Virus record (IMG/VR): IMGVR_UViG_3300048924_000206
Coordinates: 1-24,523 of that record
Source of the DNA: a virus
Strand: one strand, 5' to 3'
Length of the DNA: 24,523 nucleotides
Shown here: positions 1-22,161 of the stretch, one piece after another
How positions within the stretch are numbered: position 1 is the first letter of the stretch
How the letters are laid out: each line of letters begins with the position of its first letter
Position numbers and translations under genes: made by a program
The notes under the pieces: model-generated
What the model was told of the DNA's origin: nothing
Seen by the model: the letters and a program-made list of their open reading frames with translations, nothing else
Databases searched by the model: none

Positions 1-1073
1 CCGACCTGGCTGAGTGCCTGACCCATTGCAGGAACCAACTCGGTCTTGATTTTGTCGGCGATCGAGGTGATCGCGTCGCCACCCTGCGTACCAAGTCCGA
101 TCGCGGACGCCGTGATAGCCGCGAAGGCAGCCTTGGCCTGATCGCCGGTCAGATAAAGATCCTTCAGCCGTTTCTGCGTTCCTTCGAGCGCCTCCTGCAG
201 CGGCAGGGACTCGTTCGCCGAGAGGCGCAGCTGTTTGGCAAGCTCCCGGATATTGTCGGGGATGCCCTTCATCCCCTCGATCTTCGCCATTTCAAGCGAG
301 AACTCTCGGAAATCCGGAACGTCTTTATCGAGCAGACGAAGCGCTCGCTGAAAGTCCTGGACAGACTGCGTGGCGCCGCCGAACTCGCTGACAGGAACGC
401 TGAGGACGTCGGACGACAGCTCCTTGCTAGCGGCCGCCACAGCCGTTCGGAGGTCGCCAAACTCATCGCGGAGCTTCTGCAATGCGATCTGCTTGACGGA
501 CTCGGAATACCCATCAGCGCCCTTCTTCGCGATACCCCAAACCTCATCGAAGGAGCGGATCAGCTCGACATGGGCCTTCAAGAGCTTTTCAGCATCAGGA
601 ACGTCGGATTTCAGGGCCATGAGGTATTGGACGGCAGCGCCCGTCAGACCGATGAAGGCGAAGGAGGCGAGAGACACCGGATTGACCATGGCTGCAATAG
701 CGCCGCCAAGCGTCTTCGCAGCGCCGACGAGCCCGCCGCCCGTTCCCTGAAACACCTGCGCAACCTGGCTGCCCTGTTGCACCATGACGGTGAAGGGCGA
801 AGCACCTGAAAGCAGGCTGGTCGTGATGTCGTTCAGCTGGAACGACAAGTTCGAGACAGCAGCTCGCTGTGCCCCAAGCGACGCTTCGACCTTCTTGCCG
901 GAAGACGCAAAGCTGCCGGCGACATTGTCGTTTGCCTTCTTGAAACGACCCTCAATCCCTGTCGCACTGTCGCCGGCAGCTTTTGCGATGGCCGCGAGCT
1001 GGCGTTCGAACTTCTTCTGTGTCGCCTCGATCGAGACGAGAAGCCGAGCCTGATCTTCTGCATTCGCCGCCAC
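1..1073 (-). CDS. Phage tail tape measure protein, N-terminal part (runs off the left edge)
   Basis: About 357 residues are visible before the window ends, with no stop. The frame begins with GTG, whose G is also the last base of the preceding TAG stop, so translation is probably coupled to the tail chaperone fusion. The N-terminus is charged and helical (KKFERQLAAIAKAAG), then comes a stretch typical of prophage tape measure proteins (LNDITTSLLSGASPFTVMVQQGSQ). A glycine/alanine-rich hydrophobic segment follows at about residues 90-135. Tape measure proteins are threaded through the tail tube, set its length and are ejected at infection. The position directly after tail tube and chaperone genes is the standard siphophage order. 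Total length cannot be judged here. Confidence 0.9.
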   Translation of the reverse strand, partial: MAANAEDQARLLVSIEATQKKFERQLAAIAKAAGDSATGIEGRFKKANDNVAGSFASSGKKVEASLGAQRAAVSNLSFQLNDITTSLLSGASPFTVMVQQGSQVAQVFQGTGGGLVGAAKTLGGAIAAMVNPVSLASFAFIGLTGAAVQYLMALKSDVPDAEKLLKAHVELIRSFDEVWGIAKKGADGYSESVKQIALQKLRDEFGDLRTAVAAASKELSSDVLSVPVSEFGGATQSVQDFQRALRLLDKDVPDFREFSLEMAKIEGMKGIPDNIRELAKQLRLSANESLPLQEALEGTQKRLKDLYLTGDQAKAAFAAITASAIGLGTQGGDAITSIADKIKTELVPAMGQALSQV

Positions 1074-7482: not shown

Positions 7483-8717
7483 TCGTTTTCTCCAATCGGA
7501 GGGCCGCCGTTGTGACCCAGATTGTTTGATGGCTGATCGATAGGCACGTTCTGCGACTGCATGCGGGGCACGTCACCGCCTGTGACAGGCGGAAGTCCTT
7601 CGAGGCGCCGCACCTCGTTGATGGTCATCACGCCGGCGTTGAGAAGAGAGGTGTAGAAGGCAGCACGAGCGGTGCTATCGCCGCGCAGCAGATCCTCATA
7701 GTTGATCTTGATAGAGAACCGCAGACGCTCTTCCGGCGTGAAGATGCGCTTCTCGATCGCCTTTTCGATCCGCTTAAGGTAAGAGCGCAGACCGAAGGTG
7801 AGCCAGGCCTGCATAACGGCAGTGACACCAGTTCCCCACATTGTCTGACCTTCACCGGAATGACCGATGATGATCGGCGGCACTCCCAGCCAGCGGCAGA
7901 CTTCCTCGACGTTGAAACGCCGGTTCATGATCATCTCGGCGTCTCGCATGGAGAGACTGACCGTTTTGAAATCCACACCACCTTCGAGGATGCCTGCCCA
8001 TGGCGCATTCGGCCCGCTGTTGGCATCGACGAGCGTTTCCTTGGCGTCTTTTCTTTGCTCAGGTGTCAGCGGCCGGGATCCAGCCGGCATGACGAAGAAA
8101 CCCTTGGAGCGGATGCCTTTGGAGAAAGCCTGCCCGACAGCTCTTTCGGTCGCGATCGCCAGGCTCAGTGTCTGTCGAGCATAGGCAACAGGTGACAACC
8201 CCACGTCTCCATCGCCAAACGCCTTGATATGGAAGACCTTCGCCTCCGGAAGGATCTCCTCTTTGCCACGGTCGAGGAATTTGTACTCAAGCTCATCGTC
8301 GCTGTTGCGATAAACTCTCGTGTCAGCTGGCATTCGGTTGAGGGCGACAAGGTTCTTGCCGTAGAACACTTTCTCAGCGAAGCCGTTGCCTGACGTGCAC
8401 AAGCCGAGGACGCGGCCCTCCCAGAACTCGATGCTGGTCTGATCGGCGTTCGGACTGTTCTCGATGATCCCTTGCAGCCAATGATCTGGCGCTCGAACTT
8501 TCACGCCGTCCTTCGTCCGCTCCATAACGTCGAATGAAAGACTGGCAACCGTCTGCGCAGTAATGCGGGTTGCGGCCCAGTACGCGGATAGGTTCATCGC
8601 GCCCTGAGCGGTCACGCGCTCCCCCGCCCAGTTTTCCCCGGCACCGAGAAGACGGTAAAGCTCTTCATCGCGCGCCGTGAGAGAACGACCGCTGAACCAG
8701 TTGGACCAAAAAGCCAT
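7479..8717 (-). CDS. Portal protein (HK97 family)
   Basis: 412 aa, normal for the family. Signatures are the N-terminal AYWAATRITAQTVASL, WEGRVLGLCTSGNGFAE, the strand region with FHIKAFGDGDVGLSPVAYAR, and FNVEEVCRWLGVPPIIIGH. The C-terminal LLNAGVMTINEVRRLEGLPPV is diagnostic of HK97-type portals. It forms the dodecameric ring at one capsid vertex and is the docking point of the terminase. The ATG overlaps the terminase TGA. The proline/asparagine-rich C-terminal end (PSNNLGHNGGPPI) is typical. Confidence 0.97.
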   Translation of the reverse strand: MAFWSNWFSGRSLTARDEELYRLLGAGENWAGERVTAQGAMNLSAYWAATRITAQTVASLSFDVMERTKDGVKVRAPDHWLQGIIENSPNADQTSIEFWEGRVLGLCTSGNGFAEKVFYGKNLVALNRMPADTRVYRNSDDELEYKFLDRGKEEILPEAKVFHIKAFGDGDVGLSPVAYARQTLSLAIATERAVGQAFSKGIRSKGFFVMPAGSRPLTPEQRKDAKETLVDANSGPNAPWAGILEGGVDFKTVSLSMRDAEMIMNRRFNVEEVCRWLGVPPIIIGHSGEGQTMWGTGVTAVMQAWLTFGLRSYLKRIEKAIEKRIFTPEERLRFSIKINYEDLLRGDSTARAAFYTSLLNAGVMTINEVRRLEGLPPVTGGDVPRMQSQNVPIDQPSNNLGHNGGPPIGENE

Positions 8718-10480
8718 CAGGCCATCACCGCATTTTTGAGAAAGTCGCCGAGATCGGCATCGGTAGCTACTTCCGGATTTCGGCTCATCAGCGTGACCGC
8801 ATTAAACATCGCCATGGCCGGATCGACCTTCGCATCGCCAGCCGACTGCTTCGTCGCCCTGATCGCCGTCGCCGTCGGCTCAATCTTCAAATTAGAGATG
8901 CACCACTCCATCAGCGGGCCCCCGGAATGCTTGAAGAGACCGCTCTTGAGGCGGCGGCCAGTGGTCTTGAGAGCATTCATCATGCCAATCCCCTGGGGGG
9001 CGCCGACCAAAAGCCCGTTCTCCATTGTGACGTCGATCTCTGCCAGCGCATCGATCAGATCACCAATCCCTGCTGGGTCCACTGCGACGCCGCCCAGTTT
9101 CCCGGCTTGTTTCACCTGATGGATGCGCTCGACGATCTCGCCCATATCGCTGAGACCATCGCCCACGATCGTAAGGTCGCCATATGCTTTCAGGTCGAGA
9201 AGCTTAGGAGCGATCTTCTTGCGAATCCGCAGGACGTCCTCGTCGCACCACGCATGCGACCACGACAGCCATCGCTTCATGAACACCTGACGCTTGATGC
9301 CGTCCACTTCCGTCCAGACTTCTATTTCGCTTGGCTCGCGTCCAAGGATCGAGAAGCCGAACAAGTCATCCAGGCCGCCGCCGTCGATGCCGACACACAC
9401 ACATTCAGATCGACGAACGATCTCCCTGAATGCATCGAGGTGAGGCATGGAGGCGAGGATCTTGTGCGCGCCACCGATCCAAAGAGGAGACCCCTCCCAG
9501 CGGTTCGCGCGATGGCGCATGCCGATCTCGACATTGAGGTGCTTCGCGAGGAATGATTGGATTGTATCGCCGTCCTCATCGTCACCGGCCTGCACCTTGG
9601 CGAGCTTACGCTCCAACCAGTCCTGACTGACCGATCGGCCCATGTTGGGATTGGTCACGTAGAAGTTTGCCGGATCGAGATAGGCCTTATCCTCGATCAT
9701 CTGATCCGGAAACTCATACAACACCGGCAGGCTGCGCGGGTCGTCGATCTTGCCATCGCGCACGTCGCGGAAGTAGCTCAGCTTCTCCTTGAACACGCCG
9801 GCGGGCGGCTCGTCTGACTGCGTGGTGATGTAGATCACGAAGCCTTCCGGCCTCGATATCAATCCCCCGGTTGCTTCCTGCAGCATCGACGATGCGCCGG
9901 CCTGCTTGCCAAACAGCCAAAGCTCCTCAATAAGAACGAAGGCCGCCTTCTTGCCAGACGACGTTTTGGCATCGGCCGAGATGATCTTGAGCACCGCTCT
10001 TGTCCTGAGGTGGGTGATCTTCTTCAGGTTCCGGTTGACGTCGAGAAACTCTCGAAGCTCCGGATCGACATCGACCATGTCGGCCGCCGGTATGAACGAG
10101 TTCGCCGCGATCTCTTGTGTCGGAGCGAGAATGAGCAGCTCCGCCGAATGGCGCCAGTTGCGTATCAATGCGGTGAGCATGATGCCGGCGGCGAGCGTGC
10201 TCTTGATGTTCTTCTTCGAGATGAGGAGGAAGAACTCTTCGATGAGGCGGCGCCCAGTCTCCGCATCATAGGCCCCGAAAATGGAACGCACGAAATCGAA
10301 AACATATTCTTCGCATGCTTCGCCAAACGTTGGCTGACCGGCGACATCGACAATGCGCAGCGATTTGAAGACATCGAGCGCCGCTTCCGCTTCGTTAGGA
10401 AAGAGAGGATCGAGCGGTATCAATGACCGGCGGCCAACAATGCGCTCTTCCCAGTCGAGACAGGCCGTAGACCACTGCAT
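8717..10480 (-). CDS. Terminase large subunit
   Basis: 587 aa. ATPase plus RNase H-like nuclease of the Terminase_1 (HK97-type) group. The P-loop is atypical: ISKKNIKST at about 87-95, where many relatives have a glycine before KS. The Walker B strand is FVLIEELW at 181-188, with Glu where Asp is common. The coupling motif ITTQSDEPPAG starts near 218. The nuclease domain starts with CVCVGIDGGGLDD at about 360-371, Asp366 being the probable first metal ligand, and ends with a D-A-x-x-D-P-A-M-A-M-F-N-A motif typical of the family. It cuts and pumps DNA into the prohead through the portal. The start overlaps the small subunit stop. Confidence 0.96.
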   Translation of the reverse strand: MQWSTACLDWEERIVGRRSLIPLDPLFPNEAEAALDVFKSLRIVDVAGQPTFGEACEEYVFDFVRSIFGAYDAETGRRLIEEFFLLISKKNIKSTLAAGIMLTALIRNWRHSAELLILAPTQEIAANSFIPAADMVDVDPELREFLDVNRNLKKITHLRTRAVLKIISADAKTSSGKKAAFVLIEELWLFGKQAGASSMLQEATGGLISRPEGFVIYITTQSDEPPAGVFKEKLSYFRDVRDGKIDDPRSLPVLYEFPDQMIEDKAYLDPANFYVTNPNMGRSVSQDWLERKLAKVQAGDDEDGDTIQSFLAKHLNVEIGMRHRANRWEGSPLWIGGAHKILASMPHLDAFREIVRRSECVCVGIDGGGLDDLFGFSILGREPSEIEVWTEVDGIKRQVFMKRWLSWSHAWCDEDVLRIRKKIAPKLLDLKAYGDLTIVGDGLSDMGEIVERIHQVKQAGKLGGVAVDPAGIGDLIDALAEIDVTMENGLLVGAPQGIGMMNALKTTGRRLKSGLFKHSGGPLMEWCISNLKIEPTATAIRATKQSAGDAKVDPAMAMFNAVTLMSRNPEVATDADLGDFLKNAVMA

Positions 10481-10962
10481 CAGCGATTGTTATCGACGAT
10501 CAGCTTTGGAGCCGATGGAGGCGCGAACTTGCCGGACACTTGCTGTGCGGCCAGCTGGCGCTCCTCTTTCTTCCCGAGCTTCTTCGTCTTCTCCTGTTTC
10601 GGCTTCTCACGGCCCTTGAACTTGGCTTCCGCGTTTTCGGAATGAACCTTGTCGAGGGTGGCAAGTGCTGCGTTGAGCGCTGAGGCGTTTCCAGCTAGGC
10701 CTTGCTTGATCTGGCTAACCCGGAGCTTCGTCTTCAGCCGATCGAGCATCAGCTCTCGATCTTTGATCAGATGCAAATAATGTTTGCGAAAAGTCGGCAC
10801 CGAGAGCCCCATCCGCTTCGCGACTTCCGCGTTCGTCATGCCGGACCCGAGTAACACCATGACAAATATGATGTTTTCTTCCGACGGCTGATGCTCAGGC
10901 CTGCCGCGCTTCGCGTCAGCGGTCAGGAGAGGGTTGCCGAAGAGGTCGAAATCTTGATCCAT
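10480..10962 (-). CDS. Terminase small subunit (putative)
   Basis: 160 aa from ATG at 10962; upstream in-frame starts read through GC-rich non-coding sequence and are rejected. MDQDFDLFGNPLLT is a typical opening of alphaproteobacterial phage small terminases. RGRPEHQPSEEN follows, then a helix-turn-helix (MTNAEVAKRMGLSVPTFRKHY) at about residues 42-62. The C-terminal half is a lysine-rich helix and tail. It would recognise the packaging site and hand DNA to the large subunit. No clear ribosome binding site is seen; a T8 run on the message lies just before the start, so translation may be weak or coupled in another way. Confidence 0.82.
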   Translation of the reverse strand: MDQDFDLFGNPLLTADAKRGRPEHQPSEENIIFVMVLLGSGMTNAEVAKRMGLSVPTFRKHYLHLIKDRELMLDRLKTKLRVSQIKQGLAGNASALNAALATLDKVHSENAEAKFKGREKPKQEKTKKLGKKEERQLAAQQVSGKFAPPSAPKLIVDNNR

Positions 10963-11038
10963 CGAAAAAAAATCGTGTGCGTGAGAGGGGCGCGGGTCTA
11001 GGGGGTCGAGGCCTTCCAGACTTTTGACCCGCCCCCCC
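10963..11038. other. GC-rich gap ahead of terminase; candidate packaging (cos) region
   Basis: A 76-bp non-coding gap in an otherwise overlapping operon. It holds a C7 run (11032-11038), an inverted repeat CGGGTC/GACCCG and, on the plus strand, an A8 run near 10965-10972. It lies between the HNH-side genes and the small terminase gene, where 3'-cos phages of the HK97 type carry cos. The assignment rests only on position and composition. Confidence 0.3.
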
Positions 11039-11293
11039 TTAGGCCTTGATCGGGGCTTCGGTCGGCACATCGCCGACCTCGACCATGACGGGCGGGTGCG
11101 TGGTGCCGAGGATGCGAAGGTGGACGGAGGCGCCAGCGTTAAGGCGCTCAAGCTCATCAGGTGTCGGCGTCCATGCGGTCACCATAGCGGGTGTTCCTTC
11201 GCCGCCAACGGTGCAGTTGATCAGCTCGTCACGCAGAGGGAGACCGAGATAGCCTTGGCTCTTACCGAGGATGCGGGTTGCGCGTTCGATCAT
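11039..11293 (-). CDS. Small protein between HNH and terminase genes, unknown function
   Basis: 84 aa from ATG at 11293, or 88 aa from a GTG at 11305. It reads MIERATRILGKSQGYLGLPLRDELINC, followed by AMVTAWTPTPDELERLNAGASVHLRILGTTHPPVMVEVGD. The beta-rich C-terminal part ending in a HPPVMVEVG strand looks folded and conserved in style. I recognise it only as a small protein often found beside HNH/terminase genes of rhizobial phages; I do not know its role. Codon use matches its neighbours. Confidence 0.72.
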   Translation of the reverse strand: MIERATRILGKSQGYLGLPLRDELINCTVGGEGTPAMVTAWTPTPDELERLNAGASVHLRILGTTHPPVMVEVGDVPTEAPIKA

Positions 11294-11306: not shown

Positions 11307-11690
11307 TCACCACCGAGCCTGTGCTCGCTCCTGTTTCTGCTTCTCGCTGTCGTGATACGCCTTGCTCACGCAGTGCAGATTGTTGATGTCCCAGAAGAGT
11401 TGCTCGTCACCGTGGTGCGGCTTCTTGTGGTCGGCGACCGGACTATTGGGCGCTGGATGCTTGCCGATGCAGAGGACGCCAGTGCGCTGGCAGATGAAGG
11501 CATCACGCAGTAGCACCTGCTCTCGCAGCTTCTGCCATCTGCTGGTCTTGTACCACTTGCGATGTTCGAGGTTCTGATCACGTTCGCGATGTCGGATGGC
11601 TTCAGCTTCCTGCCTGTTGGCAGGAGCTATCGGAGAGAGGCGAGACCCGAGCGTCTTAAGTCGAGGCTGCAGAGATTTCAGCTTGCCCAT
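11307..11690 (-). CDS. HNH endonuclease of the packaging module
   Basis: 127 aa from ATG at 11690 (MGKLKSLQPRL, the usual opening of such proteins). An ATG at 11717 has a better-spaced GAGG and would add nine residues, but it lies inside a hairpin. The core is HRKWYKTSRWQKLREQVLLRD, then FICQRTGVLC, ADHKKPHHGDEQLFWDINNLH and CVSKAYHDSEKQ. The HNH residues are the His of ADHKKPH, the Asn of INNL and the His of AYHDS. The second zinc Cys pair seems incomplete (CVSKAYH rather than CxxCH). HNH proteins next to terminase are needed for specific cos cutting in HK97-type phages, and this one fits that role by position. Confidence 0.92.
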   Translation of the reverse strand: MGKLKSLQPRLKTLGSRLSPIAPANRQEAEAIRHRERDQNLEHRKWYKTSRWQKLREQVLLRDAFICQRTGVLCIGKHPAPNSPVADHKKPHHGDEQLFWDINNLHCVSKAYHDSEKQKQERAQARW

Positions 11691-11701: not shown

Positions 11702-11726
11702 CAACAAAGGCGCCCATTTGGACGCC
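11702..11726 (-). terminator. Terminator-like hairpin at the front of the late operon
   Basis: Minus strand: GGCGTCC, loop AAAT, GGGCGCC (7-bp stem with one U.G), then TTTGTTGC. It stands between the NusG-like gene and the HNH gene, just before the HNH start favoured here. As an intrinsic terminator it is of moderate quality. It would be a natural stop point for the early leftward transcript, to be overcome by an antiterminator. The alternative HNH start at 11717 would lie in its loop, in which case it could instead control translation. Confidence 0.4.
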
Positions 11727-11759
11727 TCGTAAATCATCTGGTCATAGCAGTAGCACGGA

Positions 11760-11789
11760 CCCTGAATCGATGCCTCTTGGCAATCAGGG
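11760..11789 (-). promoter_or_regulatory. Structured leader RNA element between the NusG-like and HNH genes
   Basis: Minus strand shows two nested stems: outer CCCTGA/TCAGGG and inner TGCC/GGCA with loop AAGA and an asymmetric internal loop. The whole gap 11691-11904 is non-coding in a genome that otherwise overlaps its genes. It also has a 9-base direct repeat GCAATCAGG on the plus strand (11780-11788 and 11866-11874). A site for an antitermination complex or a late promoter region are both possible; no convincing promoter hexamers are seen. Confidence 0.4.
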
Positions 11790-11904
11790 CTGGGGCTTAC
11801 CGGCGTACCCACCTGGAAGCTTTCGCTTCACTCGCACCACGATCAAGTCGGGTACTCAAAGGCTCGCAATCAGGATCATAAGCTCGTCCGTGGAGATCTT
11901 GTAC

Positions 11905-12573
11905 TCACACTTTCTCGATCTGGGCAACATCTAATTCAACGGGCGTCTCACGACCGAATATCATCACCTCCACCTTAACTCGGTTCTTTTCGCCATCCCA
12001 ATCGATGACCGTTCCGGGGAAGCTGGCGAATGGACCATCGGTCACTTGTATGGCCTCGCCTACCTCGTAAACCGTAGGGTCTGGCGGCCGGTGGTCATAG
12101 GCTCCTTCGTGCACCCGCTGAATGAATTTCTCGATAAACGCCAATGGGATGCGGTACGGTCTGTCAGCTCCTCCAACGATATCTAGTACACGCTCGAAGC
12201 GTCGCAATCCCATCATCGCTGCCGCTGAGGGAACGCACCGAACGAGGACATATCCCGGCAAAACCGGAAGGGTTGGCGCCGGAATGATGCGATGGCGCTT
12301 CATGATTTTGTCGCCAACTCTCGTCGGCACGAGTGCATGAACCTTCGCGTTCGTCAGCGCTTCTTCCACAAGGAATTCTCGACCAGCGACGACTCGAAGG
12401 CAAAACCACTGAGCTAAATTCGGGTAATCATCAGCGATTCGCTTCGCCGCCATTCCAATATGAGCGATCTTGATTCGCTTTTCCCGGATGGCCTTGTCCT
12501 GTTTGAAGTCAGCGAAGGGACGAATTTCGATTGGCTCGCCGCTGATGCCATTCCGTCTATGCTGCATCGTCAT
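11905..12573 (-). CDS. Phage-encoded NusG/RfaH-like transcription elongation factor
   Basis: 222 aa from ATG at 12573, supported by GAGGGAACGAGGCA; upstream extension is a shadow of the preceding gene. After a basic 50-residue N-terminal extension, the NGN domain starts at about 55: WFCLRVVAGREFLVEEAL, LVPTRVGDKIM, VLPGYVLVRC (105-113), and an IVGG segment near 132. A KOW domain follows at about 170-190 (VGEAIQVTDGPFASFPGTV) with a C-terminal strand VEVMIFGRETPVELD. NusG paralogues bind RNA polymerase at the clamp and stop pausing or termination. Being the last gene before the non-coding leader and late operon, it is a strong candidate for a late antiterminator. It overlaps the preceding gene by 17 bases. 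Confidence 0.92.
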   Translation of the reverse strand: MTMQHRRNGISGEPIEIRPFADFKQDKAIREKRIKIAHIGMAAKRIADDYPNLAQWFCLRVVAGREFLVEEALTNAKVHALVPTRVGDKIMKRHRIIPAPTLPVLPGYVLVRCVPSAAAMMGLRRFERVLDIVGGADRPYRIPLAFIEKFIQRVHEGAYDHRPPDPTVYEVGEAIQVTDGPFASFPGTVIDWDGEKNRVKVEVMIFGRETPVELDVAQIEKV

Positions 12574-13768
12574 TGCCTCGTTCCCTCGTGATCGCACCGC
12601 TGAATTCCGCCACCGCCTGCTCTGGCTCTCCCGGCGGGAAGTAGAGCCAGTCAACGCCGTTCGCTGGCACCGGCAGCCACGGCCAACCCTGCGCCTGGTG
12701 ATAAGCCTTCCAGCGCAGCGCTTCCGCACTGTCCTTGTGGTAGCTGACGAAGTTCTCGGAGAGTTTCACCAGCCATGGCGCCACGGTCACGCCTTCGGCC
12801 ATCTGCGCCCGCTGGTGCATCGTCATGACCTTCGGCCAGCCATAAGCCAGTCTGCGTTCCAACTTGATATTCTCAGCGGCCTCTCCACCCTGCTGCAGCT
12901 GCATCAGCTGGAAGCGCGTCGGCGGCACTGGTGGCTCAGAGGGATTTGCCAGAAGGTGCATGATGCGCTTGGCGCTCCATGCCCGGCTGAAGGCGTTGTG
13001 GAGCCCGGATCGATCAGACTCGGGCGGCAGCGCAGCGATGATGTCACGCCACTGGCGGCCCTTGAGGTAGACCGCCGCGGCTGAGCGATCGTCCTTCTTG
13101 GTCCACCTCAGAACCTCAGGCGTTTTCTCCACGCACTCGGCACGGTCTTCTGCCGGCATGGCGAACCAGGCGTTGCGAGCGAACTCGACGTCGCCCTTGT
13201 CCCAAGCCGCAAACCAGATCGTGAAGCCGTGCTCAATCTTTTTTCGATCAGCCCGCTTCAAATCTCCCTCTCCCGCGCCAGCGGCTGGAAGGTTAGAGGG
13301 AGAGTTAGCTGGAAGAGTCTTATCTTGGTGGAGCTGCTCCACCACCTTTTGGGAAACAGTTCCACCACCTTCGGGTGACAGTTCCACCACCTTTTCCTCG
13401 GAAGGCGGTGGAACAGCTCCACCACCTTTTTCATCGTCAGCTTTGGCTGCTTCACCGACAAGATCGCGGCCGGGCCAGCGCGCGACATACTCGTTGCGCT
13501 TCCACTTCTGGCCTCGATATCCGTGCTGCGAAACCTCGATCCAGCCCTTGTCCTCGGCAATTTCGAGGTGTTTCAGGACCGTCTTCTTGTCGAGGCCGCT
13601 CAGCTCGACCAGCTCCGTGATCGGCGGATAGCAGGAGCCGCCCGTTTCATCCATCTTCAGGCTGAGCGTCAGCAACACGAGACGGGTATTGGAGGGCAGG
13701 CCGGACTTCGCCACGGCGTGACGCCATGACCATGCCCGCGATCCGGACCCATGCGTAGGCTCCATCAT
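12557..13768 (-). CDS. Winged-helix protein, replication-initiator-like
   Basis: 403 aa from ATG at 13768 (AGGTGG ribosome binding site, ATGA overlap with the methyltransferase stop). An HTH_36-type winged helix spans about residues 15-95: WRHAVAKSGLPSNTRLVLLTLSLKMDE, CYPPITELVELSGLDKKTVLKHLEIAEDKGWI. A linker with repeated KVVEL-like units (about 115-155) follows; its DNA carries the iteron-like repeats. The C-terminal half is helical with many W residues (TIWFAAWDKGDVEFARNAW, YLKGRQWRDIIAALP). Lambda-O-like initiators have this plan: N-terminal winged helix binding iterons within their own gene. No helicase or primase motifs are seen. A purely regulatory role is the alternative. Confidence 0.85.
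   Translation of the reverse strand: MMEPTHGSGSRAWSWRHAVAKSGLPSNTRLVLLTLSLKMDETGGSCYPPITELVELSGLDKKTVLKHLEIAEDKGWIEVSQHGYRGQKWKRNEYVARWPGRDLVGEAAKADDEKGGGAVPPPSEEKVVELSPEGGGTVSQKVVEQLHQDKTLPANSPSNLPAAGAGEGDLKRADRKKIEHGFTIWFAAWDKGDVEFARNAWFAMPAEDRAECVEKTPEVLRWTKKDDRSAAAVYLKGRQWRDIIAALPPESDRSGLHNAFSRAWSAKRIMHLLANPSEPPVPPTRFQLMQLQQGGEAAENIKLERRLAYGWPKVMTMHQRAQMAEGVTVAPWLVKLSENFVSYHKDSAEALRWKAYHQAQGWPWLPVPANGVDWLYFPPGEPEQAVAEFSGAITRERGNDDAA
13338..13430. repeat. Iteron-like direct repeats inside the initiator-like gene (candidate origin)
   Basis: The 13-mer TCCACCACCTTTT occurs exactly at 13338-13350, 13383-13395 and 13418-13430. A fourth copy at 13361-13372 matches the first 12 bases except its end (TCCACCACCTTC). 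An inverted near-copy (GGCGGTGGAAC) is at 13403-13413. Start-to-start spacings are 23, 22 and 35 bases, so the first three lie on one DNA face (two turns apart). At protein level they encode KVVEL-type units. Confidence 0.6.
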
Positions 13769-15792
13769 GCCGCCACCTGCTGCACGGCCATGTGCCCGCA
13801 ATTGGCCGCGACAAGCGCCGTGGCGACCGGCGGCGAGACGCTGTTGCCGACGCAGCTCACCTGCACAGACTTCGAGAACGGCTTCCAGACCGGCTCTCCG
13901 CCGCCCTCAGGCTCCACATAGGCGCCGTCGATCTGATATCCCGGCGGAAAGCCCTGCGCGTTGTACAGCTCGCGCGGCGTCAGCATGCGCATGCCGATAT
14001 CGACGATAACGAAGGTCTCGCCGCCAATGCTGATCGTCACGAATTCCCGGTCATCCCAGAAGCCGTGCGCCCGCATGAAGGCGGCCACCTGGCGCGCCCG
14101 CTCTGCCTGATCTTCCGTGAACGGCGGAACGTCAATCGTGCTCTCCACATGGCTGAACCGCGGCTTCGTCGTCAGCGTGTGCAAAGGCTCATCTTCTGGC
14201 GTGTCCTGATCGACGCCATAATACGCGTGCAGGTGGGGCATGATCAGAGCCGACTTGCCCCCGCCGCCGTCCGCCGTCGTTGTCGCGAGAGGACGATCAA
14301 TCTTGTGCCCCGTGGCGGTTCCGAACTGGCGCGAGATGAAGGCCGTCACCGGCTGCTGCTGCGAGCCCTTAGCCGTGGCCGTTGCCAGCGGCTCCTCGGC
14401 ATTGCGGCCCGGATTGACGCCACCGACCCTGCGGCTGTCGTTGTTGTGCTGCGCCACGAAGGCAACCGCGGCGGCATGCTTCACGCCGCCGGCGACCACT
14501 GTGCCCAGCGGCTTGCCGATATCGAGCGCACGAGGCTCCTGGCCTTCTCGCTCGCCGTACCCGGTCTGGATGAGCGTCGGCACCAAGACCGAGTTCTGAT
14601 CCTTCTTCGAGGCGCAAATCGTGTGGTGAGGCTCGTCTACCGGTCGGTTCGCGCCTCCCTGCTGCGCGTAGGTCAGGACGGGAGCGACAAGACCGAGCGG
14701 CGCAGCGCCGCCTGGCCGCTTGATGAAGCTATTCGCCGTAATCGTCGAGAGTGGATCACGAATGTCTTGCCCAGTCGCGCCGGTATTTATGCGGATGACC
14801 GATGGTGCTACCGCCGCCTTCTCGCCTCGATGTGCCCCAGTGATGGTATTGAATGGCTCGGCTACGTCCTCACAGCGCCCGCCATGCGTCAGGTTGACGA
14901 TGAAGGGGCGTTCGGCTTCGAGCACATAACGCTTCATGCCGCGCGCCACGCGGGCCATTGTGTTGTCGGCGAGCGGGCGGACGGCCTTCAGGCCGAAGCG
15001 GCGCATGATCTCCCCGGAGGTGTCGAAGATCGACGGGCATGGCTGCGACCAGTCGATGATCTCCGCCGCTGTGCGCCACGGCAGCTTCTTGCCAGCGATC
15101 ACGTCGCGGTCATCTGGCTTGCCATGAGTCGGTTGCGGCCAGACGATTGGCTGGCCGTCAAACCTGATGATGACGAACAGGCGCTTGCGGATCGTCGGCG
15201 CGCCGTAGTCGCACGCGCGTAGCTCGCGATACTGGATCTTGCCGCCGAGTTTGCGGATGGCCTTGCACCATTTCTGGAAGGTCTCGCCGCGGCGCTCCGG
15301 ATCGGGCATCAAACCGCGTTCGGTGGCGATCAGCGGCCCGTAATCTTTGAACTCCTCGACGTTCTCCATGATGATGACATCGACCTTGCCGCCGCTCTTC
15401 TGGATGCGCTCCACCCAGCCCGGAATGATCCATGCGAGATCCCGGATGTTGCGCTCGACGGGCTTGCCGCCCTTGGCCTTTGAGAAGTGCTTGCAATCGG
15501 GCGAGAACCACGCGAGCCCGATATGACGCCCTTTCAGGTAATCCAGCGGGTCGATCTTGTAGACGTTTTCCGACAGGTGCAGCGTCTCCGGGTGATTGGC
15601 CGCGTGCAGCGCCAGCGCGTCCGGATTGTGGTTGATGGCGATATCGGGCGAACGGCCAAGCGCCATCTCAATCCCGGTCGATGCCCCGCCGCCGCCGGCG
15701 AAGCTGTCGATAATCATCGGCGGCAGCCTGCCGCCGTGGTGCTGAAACAGGTCAGCAGTGCTCATGCCCCCGAAGAGCGATCCCGCATACAT
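13765..15792 (-). CDS. C5-cytosine DNA methyltransferase with a repeat-rich target-recognition region
   Basis: 675 aa from ATG at 15792; a TTG six bases upstream is in frame, but GAGGGGATTGACC suits the ATG. Motif I is DSFAGGGGASTGIE (29-42). Motif IV is FSPDCKHFS with Cys100 as the likely nucleophile; most family members have PPCQ. Motif VI is ENVEEF, motif VIII is RKRLFVI, and motifs IX-X (RELYNAQGFPPGY, CVGNSVSPPVA) are at the C-terminus. Between VIII and IX lies an unusually long segment (about 300-545) with seven copies of an E/D-P-L-x-T-x-T-like unit spaced 33-41 residues apart. No restriction partner is nearby, so protection from host restriction or an epigenetic role is likely. Confidence 0.93.
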   Translation of the reverse strand: MYAGSLFGGMSTADLFQHHGGRLPPMIIDSFAGGGGASTGIEMALGRSPDIAINHNPDALALHAANHPETLHLSENVYKIDPLDYLKGRHIGLAWFSPDCKHFSKAKGGKPVERNIRDLAWIIPGWVERIQKSGGKVDVIIMENVEEFKDYGPLIATERGLMPDPERRGETFQKWCKAIRKLGGKIQYRELRACDYGAPTIRKRLFVIIRFDGQPIVWPQPTHGKPDDRDVIAGKKLPWRTAAEIIDWSQPCPSIFDTSGEIMRRFGLKAVRPLADNTMARVARGMKRYVLEAERPFIVNLTHGGRCEDVAEPFNTITGAHRGEKAAVAPSVIRINTGATGQDIRDPLSTITANSFIKRPGGAAPLGLVAPVLTYAQQGGANRPVDEPHHTICASKKDQNSVLVPTLIQTGYGEREGQEPRALDIGKPLGTVVAGGVKHAAAVAFVAQHNNDSRRVGGVNPGRNAEEPLATATAKGSQQQPVTAFISRQFGTATGHKIDRPLATTTADGGGGKSALIMPHLHAYYGVDQDTPEDEPLHTLTTKPRFSHVESTIDVPPFTEDQAERARQVAAFMRAHGFWDDREFVTISIGGETFVIVDIGMRMLTPRELYNAQGFPPGYQIDGAYVEPEGGGEPVWKPFSKSVQVSCVGNSVSPPVATALVAANCGHMAVQQVAA

Positions 15793-15794
15793 GG

Positions 15795-16085
15795 TCAATC
15801 CCCTCTGGCCGCCGCCGCGACCCGCATATCGAGCCCGGCAATCGCCAGCGCCTTCTCGATTTCAATGGTGTATTTGCCGTCCTCGGTTCGAACGGACGAC
15901 GCGGCGGCCAAGCGGACTGCCGCATAGGTGACCGCTGCCTCGAATCCGCTGGCGGCGAGCACGATCTTGATTTCGGAAACGCTGCGCACGTAGACCGCGT
16001 CGGGCGCTCGAAAGAGCCAATCGGCCTGATCAGGCGCCGTCGTCAGGCTGATGAGATGTTCGACTGTGGGAAGGAAGGGGGTCAT
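15795..16085 (-). CDS. Small protein between the two methyltransferases, unknown function
   Basis: 96 aa from ATG at 16085, which overlaps the upstream stop (ATGA). It begins MTPFLPTVEHLISLTTAPDQADWLFRAPDAVY. A strand-helix region follows (EIKIVLAASGFEAAVTYAAVRLAAAS), then YTIEIEKALAIAGLDMR, ending in an alanine-rich helix. No catalytic motif is visible. Its translational coupling to both methyltransferase genes suggests a connected role or merely economy of space. Family not recognised. Confidence 0.78.
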   Translation of the reverse strand: MTPFLPTVEHLISLTTAPDQADWLFRAPDAVYVRSVSEIKIVLAASGFEAAVTYAAVRLAAASSVRTEDGKYTIEIEKALAIAGLDMRVAAAARGD

Positions 16086-17593
16086 GCCACCTCGCTTTCC
16101 GCTTTGGCGGCTTCGAAGCCCCACGCTTCCCAACCGGGGCGCGGCGCCCTGCAGAAAAGTTCGAGCTTCGGGATGCCGGGATAGAGCTTATCAATCGTCT
16201 CGGCGTAGAAGTCTGGCTTGGCGCTGTGCCTGCCCTTGGCTTCGCGATGCACTGTCTGCGGCTGAGTACCGGGAAGCGGCGCCACCGGCTGGCCCTTCTT
16301 GCCGATCAGCAGCAGCTCGTGCCGGTCGCGGCCCCAGTATCCGGTTCCAGCGATCTCCTTGTCCCATATCCAGTGATGGACATAGGTGAAGCCCCACGCC
16401 TCCATGACGCGCAGTGCGTCAGTCAGCATGGGGTTCGTGGCCCAGAGGAAGAGCACCGCATCAGCTTTGGCAGGCGAGCCGATCTCGGAGAACAGATCGC
16501 AGATCGCTCCAGTCGGCATTGTGGGATAATGGTTTTCGGCGCTCTTTTCGCGCCCTGTCACTTCCGACCGGACACCGAACTGCCACGGCGGATCGGCATA
16601 AATGATCGGGAACCGCTTCGTGATCTGCCCCGCCGTCGCCGCGCCGTTGGTCTGGACATGCGCCATGTGCGTCAGGCGCACGCTATGGCGCACCTCCGCC
16701 AGCTTGCGCCGGTTTTCCTTCGTCGCAGCCGCCATGCGTTTCTCTTCGTCGAGAGCGGCCTCGACATAGAGAACCTGCTTGTCGGGCGCCACCTGCTTGA
16801 GGCGATCGAGAAAGGCGCCGCTGTCGAGACGGGTGCCGCGCAACCGGTGCAACGCCATATCGACGATCTTTTCGCCGCGCGACGCATCGCGTTGGACTGT
16901 CCGCTGATCGCGGCCCGTTGCTTCAGCCGTCTGCGCAGCAAACGACAACTTGTCGCTTGCTAAGTTTTGCCGGGCTCGCCCACCCGCTACGCCCTGCGCC
17001 GTCTCAGGGTACTTTTCGAGGTAGATTTCCTTGCGGCGCGCCACGAACAGCGCTCGGTCTGCAGGCGTCAGCTCCGCCCTGCAGAGATTTTCGTCGATCT
17101 CCCACAGTTCACGGTCGAGGTCATCGATAGCCTCATGGAAGCAGAGGATTTTGGGCCACCCGAGCTGCCGTGCCGTCTCCAGGCGGTGCAGGCCAGCTGA
17201 GAGGTTGACCCGTTCGTCCGCCTCCACGCCCTGCACAGTGATCGGCGTTTTCTGTCCGATCTCCCGAAACGACGGCTTGAGCGCATCGACCTTGGTCTGA
17301 TCCGCCTGGCGCAGCCGGTCGCCGATGTTGATCGTGTCGATGTCGCGCCAAATTGCCACGCGGCTATCGATTGCCGGCGCCGAGGGGGACGGCGCCACCG
17401 GATTCAGCTTTCGCGCCTTGTCGGTCGGATACCAAAGATCCGCATCAGTCTTATCGCGCAGCAGCATGCCCGTGCCGTTCATCCGGGCGCAAGCCTGCCG
17501 CTCGTTCGACGATGCGCTCCGGTAAGAGCCGCTCATCAGCGCTTCATCAAGGATTGCGCGGGCGCGTTCGCCACTCTTGGCCTGCTGTGTCAT
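16082..17593 (-). CDS. ParB-like domain fused to MT-A70 adenine-N6 DNA methyltransferase
   Basis: 503 aa. Residues 1-75 form a variable N-terminus. A ParB/Srx domain (about 85-250) has DALKPSFREIGQKTPITV, the GLHRLETARQLGW motif (134-146, G-x-H-R) and ENLCRAELTPADRAL. A charged helix follows (EEKRMAAATKENRRKLAEVRH), then MT-A70 from about 325: IIYADPPWQFG with catalytic DPPW at 334-337, NHYPTMPTGAICDL, LFLWATNPML, GFTYVHHWIWDK, RHELLLIGKKG and the C-terminal LELFCRAPRPGWEAWG. It should methylate adenine in DNA. The ParB domain probably binds DNA or supplies nucleotide-dependent clamping; its activity here is unknown. The fusion occurs in other phages. Coupled by ATGA to the preceding gene. 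Confidence 0.95.
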   Translation of the reverse strand: MTQQAKSGERARAILDEALMSGSYRSASSNERQACARMNGTGMLLRDKTDADLWYPTDKARKLNPVAPSPSAPAIDSRVAIWRDIDTINIGDRLRQADQTKVDALKPSFREIGQKTPITVQGVEADERVNLSAGLHRLETARQLGWPKILCFHEAIDDLDRELWEIDENLCRAELTPADRALFVARRKEIYLEKYPETAQGVAGGRARQNLASDKLSFAAQTAEATGRDQRTVQRDASRGEKIVDMALHRLRGTRLDSGAFLDRLKQVAPDKQVLYVEAALDEEKRMAAATKENRRKLAEVRHSVRLTHMAHVQTNGAATAGQITKRFPIIYADPPWQFGVRSEVTGREKSAENHYPTMPTGAICDLFSEIGSPAKADAVLFLWATNPMLTDALRVMEAWGFTYVHHWIWDKEIAGTGYWGRDRHELLLIGKKGQPVAPLPGTQPQTVHREAKGRHSAKPDFYAETIDKLYPGIPKLELFCRAPRPGWEAWGFEAAKAESEVA

Positions 17594-20820: not shown

Positions 20821-21022
20821 AGAATGCGGGGAGAGCTTCGTCGAACCTCTCGAAGAGCTGGTCGCCCTCGATGAGGTATCGCGCCTTTACCGGGCAGTCG
20901 CTGATGGCGAGCCCAAGATTGAAGTCCTGCAGATGATCTATGAAATCTTCGGCGTCAGCTATGGGCTTGCCCCCCCCGGTAACCGAGATCAAGATTGCCG
21001 AACGGTGCAGCGCAGGGATTAG
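20807..21022 (+). CDS. Small protein with a Cys pair; reading frame broken or switched at a C8 run
   Basis: 71 aa as read: MPVCEECGESFVEPLEELVALDEVSRLYRAVADG, then IEVLQMIYEIFGVSYGLAPPG and a polar tail that does not look folded. The run of eight C at 20970-20977 sits where the sequence loses its protein-like character. With one C fewer the frame continues VTEIKIAERCSAG and stops just inside the dnaN-like start. So the gene may be frameshifted, phase-variable or affected by a sequencing error. CEEC could bind metal or be redox-active. Family unknown. Confidence 0.65.
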   Translation: MPVCEECGESFVEPLEELVALDEVSRLYRAVADGEPKIEVLQMIYEIFGVSYGLAPPGNRDQDCRTVQRRD

Positions 21023-21027
21023 GTCGC

Positions 21028-22161
21028 ATGGCTGATCTTCTTTTCCGCGTCCATCGCTCGCAGCTGCTGCCCGCCGTCAATGCCGTTTCAGACGCCGTCG
21101 ATGCAAAGGCTACGATTCCAATCCTTGCCAACATCCTCTTGCGGCCAGTCGGCGATCAGCTTGTGGTGCGCGGCACGGATCTCAACCTCGAAGTCGAGGC
21201 CCGTTGCGAACTGCTGGAAGATGCCAGCGGCCAGGCAATCACGCTCGATGGCGCACGGCTTCGCGATATCTTGCGTAATCTGCCGGAGTCGTCCGAGATC
21301 GACTTCCTGCCCGGCCCGATCGAAGGCCAGATCCGCGTCCGCGCTGGTCGCGCAAGCTTCCTGATCTTCAGCCTGCCGGAAACCGACTTCCCGTCGATTG
21401 CCAAGCATGTGAAGGGCGAACCTTTCAACATCGAGATCAAGACGCTTTCGCAGGCTTTCGGCAAGGTGCTCTATGCCGTGGAGCCTTCCGGTAGTGACCG
21501 CGTCTACCTGACCGGCATATGCATCCATCCCTACGAGGACGGAAACAAGATTGCCATTGTCGCCACGAACGGCCGCTGCGTGGCAGTCGTTCGCGTGCCG
21601 ACAAGAACACGGGCGAAGTTTCCTTCCGTCATCCTGCCGGTCAAGGCGGTGAATGCGATCCGGAAGCATATCGGCGACGGCAAGGCGGAGGCGACCGTCC
21701 ATGTGTCGGACACCTTGGTGCAGATATCGGCTGAAGGTATTTGCATCATCAGCAACCTCGTCGATGGCCGCTATCCGGACTACATGAAGGTCGTGCCGAC
21801 CGATAACAACAGCGTCATGCGCGGCACGATCGACGCACTTGCAGGTGCGGCTCGCCGTGTTTCCCTCGTCGCCAAGGAGAAATCCAAGACAGGGATGGTT
21901 CTGACCATCGAGAATAACAAGCTTCACTTCGAGGCAACCAGCCGCGAGGGCGAGGAAGCCAGTGATGAAATCGCCGTCGAGTACGGCGGCGACCGCTTCG
22001 TTACCGGCTTCAATGGCGATTTGTTCGACAAGACGCTCGAAGCGATCGCCACAACCGACGTCGATGTCTTCTTCGGCGAGCCTGCGTCACCGGCAATTTT
22101 CAAGCCGACCGCTGCCCTCGACGAGTTTTTCATCCTCATGCCGGTGAGGGTCAGCGCATGA
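21028..22161 (+). CDS. dnaN: DNA polymerase III beta subunit (sliding clamp) homologue
   Basis: 377 aa, close to the bacterial clamp length, from ATG at 21028 (upstream Met residues lie in the previous gene). Three clamp-like domains can be followed. Domain 1 holds LLPAVNAVSDAVDAKATIPILANILL, VVRGTDLNLEVEA and GRASFLIFSLPETDFPS. Domain 2 holds GKVLYAVEPSGSDRVYLTGICIH and IAIVATNGRCVAV. Domain 3 holds LVDGRYPDYMKVVPTDNN, MVLTIENNKLHFEA and VTGFNGDLFDKTLEAI. The C-terminal MPVRVSA corresponds to MPMRL of the E. coli clamp pocket that binds polymerase and other partners. It probably tethers host Pol III or a phage partner to phage DNA. Confidence 0.95.
   Translation: MADLLFRVHRSQLLPAVNAVSDAVDAKATIPILANILLRPVGDQLVVRGTDLNLEVEARCELLEDASGQAITLDGARLRDILRNLPESSEIDFLPGPIEGQIRVRAGRASFLIFSLPETDFPSIAKHVKGEPFNIEIKTLSQAFGKVLYAVEPSGSDRVYLTGICIHPYEDGNKIAIVATNGRCVAVVRVPTRTRAKFPSVILPVKAVNAIRKHIGDGKAEATVHVSDTLVQISAEGICIISNLVDGRYPDYMKVVPTDNNSVMRGTIDALAGAARRVSLVAKEKSKTGMVLTIENNKLHFEATSREGEEASDEIAVEYGGDRFVTGFNGDLFDKTLEAIATTDVDVFFGEPASPAIFKPTAALDEFFILMPVRVSA

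Follow-up and report, generated by a model that had tools for sequence, protein, structure and literature searches.

Why should a phage encode a NusG protein of its own, and what would that protein act on? The question is raised by a gene in the window, as we call the whole 24,523-base virus record that was analysed. In the first-pass annotation this gene was read as a NusG paralogue that has an NGN domain, a KOW domain and a 50-residue extension, and as a candidate late antiterminator. Its boundaries, both domains and the extension had been assigned correctly, as judged by the ORF listing, Pfam, PHROG and AlphaFold2. The Pfam NusG domain was found at residues 55-150 (E=4e-12), with an NGN (PF02357) score of 46.8 bits against a cut-off of 22.2, and a KOW motif at residues 171-202 scored slightly below its Pfam cut-off (20 against 22.3 bits). 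With an NGN domain above the curated cut-off and a KOW motif after it, the window protein belongs to the NusG superfamily (PF02357). In the AlphaFold2 model (mean pLDDT 87.8), the N-terminal extension is followed by the NGN fold and by a KOW domain that forms a beta-barrel; its fold matches include NusG, RfaH and a NusG-RNA complex from the PDB (8f5g).

Below the level of the superfamily the protein stands apart. Its scores were 94.8 bits with the housekeeping NusG model TIGR00922 (cut-off 135.7), 46.7 bits with the LoaP model NF033641 (cut-off 125) and 32.8 bits with the RfaH model TIGR01955 (cut-off 144.5), and it fell far under the NCBIfam cut-off for UpxY. Judged by its sequence, the phage NusG falls into none of the curated NusG subfamilies. 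The 13 housekeeping NusGs included in a tree of 70 sequences formed one separate group (support 100/98) that contained no phage sequence. The protein does match PHROG 6386, annotated as 'transcription antiterminator' (E=2e-40); since this family also matches host NusG, its genome counts are unusable as prophage counts. The surmise in the first-pass annotation that similar genes may already be annotated in rhizobial phages is borne out by this PHROG and by the phiLM21-like prophages, for which the relevant passages of PMC12429752 report an annotated 'transcription antiterminator' that closes the early region and has an HNH gene next to it.

The nusG gene is the last of a leftward early operon that also includes a CII-like gene, methyltransferases and the replication-initiation gene Rep, the end of which overlaps the start of nusG. 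It is followed by a non-coding gap of 214 nt (nusG stop at 11905, next ATG at 11690) and then by genes for an HNH endonuclease, a candidate terminase small subunit, the terminase large subunit (TerL), a portal protein, a ClpP-type protease and a capsid protein, all on the minus strand to the end of the window, so that the late operon extends over at least 11.7 kb (Table 1). A place at the early/late boundary, immediately before the packaging and structural genes, had been proposed for nusG and is what we find. Other genes of the window include (i) a phage-encoded homologue of the DNA polymerase III beta-clamp, DnaN (20995..22161, plus strand), (ii) a ParB-like domain fused to an MT-A70 methyltransferase (17593..16082, minus strand), and (iii) in the early operon, a C5-cytosine methyltransferase of 677 aa (15798..13765, minus strand), similar to genes located near nusG in several relatives.

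Table 1. Features of the nusG region and the adjoining leader, in window coordinates.
Feature	Position	Strand	Basis or remark
Replication-initiation (HTH) gene, Rep	12557..13801	-	phrog_270; conserved upstream neighbour of nusG
Phage NusG paralogue, 222 aa	12573..11905 (stop included)	-	ORF listing, Pfam, PHROG, AlphaFold2, tree
NusG parts	N-terminal extension ~residues 1-50 (helix 19-40), NGN 55-150, KOW beta-barrel 171-222		
Conserved structured leader RNA, ~165 nt	11904..11741	-	begins directly after nusG stop; motif enrichment, class alignments, covariation
GGACGA motif	11889..11884	-	5' part of leader RNA
Closing helix P1, 5' strand GCUUAU	11883..11878	-	anchored alignment
Closing helix P1, 3' strand GUAAGC	11795..11800	-	anchored alignment
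3' domain common to all RNA classes	11741..11795	-	covariance model R1, pair counts
P4	11790..11784 with 11765..11759	-	inside the 3' domain, which also has P5
Mini-hairpin GC-UACU-GC	11754..11747	-	3' domain, which also includes GCUAUGA
Terminator-like hairpin GAGGCGUCC-AAAU-GGGCGCCUU, then UGUUG	11728..11707	-	9-bp stem
HNH endonuclease, first late gene	11307..11690	-	PHROG HNH families; ATG 11690 just past terminator
Candidate terminase small subunit, HTH-containing	10480..11157	-	weak family matches; listed ORF bounds
Terminase large subunit (TerL), start of packaging and structural run	8717..10480	-	family matches

Homologues were collected with narrower alignments and with single proteins, an alignment of eight proteins being too diverse to work; one of the queries gave no matches. 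The order Rep, nusG, gap, packaging genes was kept, as far as the records reach, in all seven named phages (Nostoc phage Nsp-JY10, Sinorhizobium phages phi2LM21 and phi3LM21, Mesorhizobium phage P1, Agrobacterium phage Rivra, Rhizobium phage PPF1 and Labrenzia phage V1). The listed viral and prophage loci, retrieved by similarity, have Rep directly 5' of nusG, and TerL was found 3' of it in most of those long enough. Homologues scattered with no link to late operons would have spoken against an antiterminator; instead, nusG has a fixed place after Rep and before the late module, even though the TerL genes downstream span two Pfam families (TerL in 11/16, GpA in 5/16).

The gap itself had been described as a non-coding leader. 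Non-coding it is, but the description stopped short of what proved to be its main feature, as the leader is a conserved structured RNA accompanied by a terminator-like hairpin. Among 89 dereplicated leaders, GGTCGCCTTT recurred in 66 loci and CGATTCAGGG in 40, compared to a maximum of 4 for ten-mers in the shuffled control. In the 5' part of the common plan, GGAYGA and helix P1, which closes the structure, are followed by an inner domain that differs from class to class, the P1 partner strand and CCC; the 3' part consists of P4 (GCCYUGA with UCARGGC) around P5, a 2-bp mini-hairpin, GCUAUGA, ∼15 nt, and the terminator-like hairpin. The covariance model R1 matched the window at 11795..11741 (E=1.7e-18) and had no other convincing match there. 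A second copy, as in paired nut or put sites, was not found: there was one convincing match per window or phage record, and the weak extra matches in these sequences were at chance level.

Since the 5' domains are not alike, only weak structures came out of a global RNAalifold analysis of the mixed RNA classes, and the helices were therefore tested separately. For P4-P6, pairing was 92.4% compared to 85.9% in shuffled alignments, there were 35 double-change cells compared to 12.5, and covariation was 0.235 compared to 0.127, a value reached in none of 500 shuffles. For P1, with both strands anchored by alignment and pairing ignored, 15 of 33 distinct 5-mers were fully paired, compared to a mean of 3.3 and a maximum of 9 when the partners were swapped; two earlier tests of this helix, with a poorly anchored register, had given a weak signal at best. 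In the largest RNA class, 18 of 28 distinct P3 7-mers were fully paired (mean 1.9 and maximum 8 when swapped), a count obtained with a second pattern after the first had caught nine loci only. Compensatory change in P1, P3 and P4 is, in these sequence comparisons, well above the controls. G-U pairs outnumbered A-C oppositions by 13 to 0 in P3 and by 53 to 0 in the terminator-like hairpin, which points to the late-sense RNA as the functional strand; in P4-P6 the two were nearly equal (15 to 14). The minimum-energy fold of the window leader alone was of modest stability (z=-2.6) and did not contain the comparative helices.

Rfam gave no match at E<=5 in the leader region of the window, none at the gathering score in ten loci except a tRNA, and, in three relatives, no more than chance matches below the threshold. 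The leader RNA is thus assigned to no Rfam covariance model, EAR, JUMPstart and put-type entries (where present) included. The published motif Rhizobiales-1 has no listed Rfam entry and hence lies outside this comparison; its table describes it as not cis-acting.

With a stem of 7 bp or longer and a T-rich tail as the criterion, a terminator-like hairpin was detected in 73 of the 89 leaders, compared to 20 of 324 control stretches taken from genes and no more than 1 of 89 leaders after shuffling; by the same criterion 16 leaders have none. The U tract is strong in most relatives and weak in the window, where a stricter consensus terminator scan did not accept the hairpin. The RNA and the terminator need not be contiguous. 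A tRNA-Met (CAU) gene lies between them in one locus (L092:6853-6929), and four others (L016, L035, L070 and L107) have an ORF or a short stretch there. Such a separation is more in keeping with a site at which an elongation factor is loaded than with an attenuator of the riboswitch type. Inserted ORFs or short stretches, in some cases with antisense ORFs, separate the leader RNA from the late genes in L016, L035, L070, L107, L132 and L106, and it is possible that this region is a site for added genes.

The RNA was invariably accompanied by nusG. A pattern based on the RNA only retrieved 118 oriented viral loci, nine of which were too short upstream for nusG to be looked for; in all the remaining 109, nusG was located 91-158 nt upstream of the RNA. 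The RNA was also carried by 48 of 396 sampled Rhizobiaceae genomes (∼12%), three of which had several matches, as expected with several prophages, and in 30/30 loci from bacterial genomes both nusG and Rep were present upstream on the same strand. Outside Rhizobiaceae, R1 gave weak, chance-like matches only. Nostoc phage Nsp-JY10 (L001, PP395642.1) was recorded from a cyanobacterium and has a NusG, RNA leader and synteny of the type otherwise seen here in Rhizobiaceae; it may in truth be a phage of a rhizobium. A NusG 83-84% identical to its own is present in two viral contigs. NusG-like genes also turned up in Microcystis phage MaAM05 and in unannotated records of gut phages and of very large phages.

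The two elements also appear to be inherited together. Over 62 loci, RNA distance correlated with NusG distance at r=0.82, part of which is accounted for by adjacency, compared to r=0.33 with Rep, which overlaps nusG, and r=0.14 with TerL. The partial correlation of RNA and NusG given Rep was 0.59, and that of RNA and Rep given NusG was 0.12. There were no pairs of loci with NusG at least 85% identical yet RNA below 70%, and none with NusG below 45% yet RNA at least 85%. Where Rep was at least 80% and NusG less than 50% identical, the RNA was unlike as well in 16/16 pairs, two of which have a TerL 96% identical. Loci L109 and L131, each compared with L071, have Rep at 89% and TerL at 96%, but NusG at 34% and RNA at 60%. 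As the flanks are alike and both NusG and the RNA are unlike, the latter two appear, on these identities, to have been exchanged as one cassette. When mapped onto the NusG tree, the RNA classes required 8 changes, compared to 40 when shuffled (L099 having been given a default class label). A conserved cis element with its cognate factor, one of the features by which processive antitermination is recognised, is thus indicated by covariation, linkage and joint inheritance. Another such feature, read-through of distant terminators that depends on the factor, is hinted at indirectly by the insertions between RNA and terminator.

Seven loci with divergent phage NusGs (L026, L027, L033, L036, L037, L039 and L007) have leaders that are shorter or different. 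The leaders of L026, L027, L033, L036 and L037 have neither an R1 match nor a terminator by the above criterion, while those of L007 and L039 lack an R1 match but have terminator-like hairpins. In several of them a GGACGA-like motif and P1-like pairing can be seen by eye, and these leaders are perhaps further RNA classes.

We propose, at a probability of roughly 0.7, that the phage NusG and the leader RNA are a processive-antitermination pair that switches transcription from early to late genes. Transcription of the early operon would proceed through the leader RNA and reach, ahead of the first late gene, a terminator of the intrinsic type, where most polymerases would stop until phage NusG accumulates. 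As the product of the last early gene, expressed from the 3' end of the early transcript, this protein would recognise the nascent leader RNA immediately downstream on its own transcript and replace host NusG on RNA polymerase, and the modified complex would pass the terminator and continue through the late operon. From the comparative patterns we infer NusG-RNA binding, termination at the hairpin, read-through caused by NusG, its processivity and the absence of a late promoter. A scan for the sigma-70 consensus, from which rhizobial promoters can differ, gave no such promoter in the interval from nusG to the late genes, either in the window or in two relatives. The late-antiterminator reading of the first-pass annotation gains support from the fixed position, the cognate RNA, the terminator-like hairpin and the exchange of nusG with the RNA. 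It has to be refined in two respects: comparable genes are already annotated, and what is distinctive is the cis element and not the protein alone. As to whether, in many Rhizobiaceae phages, a matched NusG and multi-helix RNA form the early-to-late switch and their sequence types are swapped as specificity cassettes, we lean towards this broader view at slightly better than even odds.

The leader might instead be an ordinary attenuator or riboswitch-like element of the late operon that senses something else, with nusG a mere neighbour in the early operon. A structured RNA and a terminator right before a start codon are indeed the classic layout of such elements. This explanation is nevertheless unlikely, as the RNA and NusG types change together even where both flanks are kept, the RNA was never found without nusG in viral or bacterial-genome loci, and a tRNA or an ORF can separate it from the terminator. 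Less likely still, the structured transcript end could be a 3'-UTR small RNA or an mRNA-stabilising element of the early operon, the late operon having its own promoter. The RNA does end in a terminator-like hairpin, and read-through into the late operon is something that we infer; against this explanation stands the lack of a sigma-70-like promoter in the window and two relatives, which is weak evidence, and it would leave unexplained the co-inheritance with NusG, a transcription elongation factor.

It is also rather improbable that the phage NusG acts mainly elsewhere, for example by competing with host NusG in the infected cell and so disturbing Rho termination or transcription-translation coupling, while the RNA autoregulates nusG or is of minor importance. 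The KOW sequence is close to that of E. coli NusG, GPF segment included, and general contacts may persist; yet the placement before the late genes is fixed, and the cognate RNA lies downstream, not upstream, of nusG. Finally, a DNA site, either a cos/pac packaging site near terminase or a replication origin beside Rep, was rejected as very improbable: the stretch adjoins terminase and replication genes, but the TerL genes that it precedes fall into two Pfam families, its sequence distances correlate little with those of TerL (r=0.14) or Rep (r=0.33), and its compensatory changes, with G-U pairs on the sense strand, point to RNA.

No description of the leader RNA or of a phage NusG-RNA pair was found in the open-access literature, to which the search was confined, and the LM21 prophage paper makes no mention of the antiterminator. 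Annotated phage antiterminator genes are known, as is processive antitermination by a NusG paralogue and an RNA; the proposed setting in a phage late switch and an RNA family absent from Rfam 15 appear to be new. If our proposal is true, the combination of a NusG paralogue and a structured RNA, represented by LoaP in Bacillota, also serves as a late-gene switch of phages in Proteobacteria. Its occurrence in ∼12% of 396 Rhizobiaceae genomes, as judged by the RNA, makes the system common, and phages and prophages of rhizobia that are in laboratory use (phi2LM21, phi3LM21) have it. The natural swaps of NusG-RNA cassettes between otherwise similar phages are ready tests of the specificity of RNA recognition by NusG.

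In phage lambda, the early protein N and its cognate nut RNA site load an antitermination complex, and the N-nut types of lambdoid phages swap together; N, which is small and disordered, brings in host NusG along with NusA, NusB and S10. The protein and RNA-site sequence types change together here too, but the phage factor is itself a NusG, and its RNA site lies just 3' of its own gene, before the late genes. The lambda Q type relies on a DNA site within the late promoter. The sigma-70-consensus scan gave no promoter here, with the proviso that rhizobial promoters can differ. RfaH is, like the phage protein, a NusG paralogue and prevents termination in long operons, an activity that the phage protein may share by analogy. 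Its ops element is a DNA pause element, whereas the cis element here is an RNA, and the KOW domain of RfaH switches fold from an all-alpha, autoinhibited state, whereas the KOW domain of the phage protein is predicted by AlphaFold2 to be a beta-barrel, a second fold being possible.

The put RNA of HK022 is a nascent phage RNA element that suppresses termination (PMC9378689), as the leader RNA may do; put works alone and on early genes, while the leader RNA always occurs with nusG and before late genes. GafZ of the Caulobacter gene transfer agent offers a possible parallel in the antitermination of a phage-like structural gene cluster in an alphaproteobacterium, but it is not a NusG; it acts, in concert with host NusG, from a putative DNA element close to the promoter (PMC11150451). 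For the antiterminator of the phiLM21-like prophages, the relevant passages of PMC12429752 give an annotation and mention neither an RNA element nor a terminator nor a pairing of protein and RNA. By analogy, the phage NusG-RNA pair has its closest precedent in LoaP. This protein binds a hairpin of the leader RNA and, by antagonising NusA, favours read-through at the intrinsic terminator that follows (PMC12691694). The layout of LoaP and its dfn/mln hairpin in Bacillus velezensis (PMC12691694), with a specialised NusG paralogue, a leader RNA and a following terminator, matches that of the phage locus, and the fold of the phage NusG matches, among others, that of the NusG-RNA complex 8f5g. LoaP, however, is chromosomal and serves antibiotic operons, and its RNA is a small UNCG hairpin, whereas the phage NusG is set before the late operon of a Rhizobiaceae phage and would act through a leader RNA of ∼165 nt with several helices.
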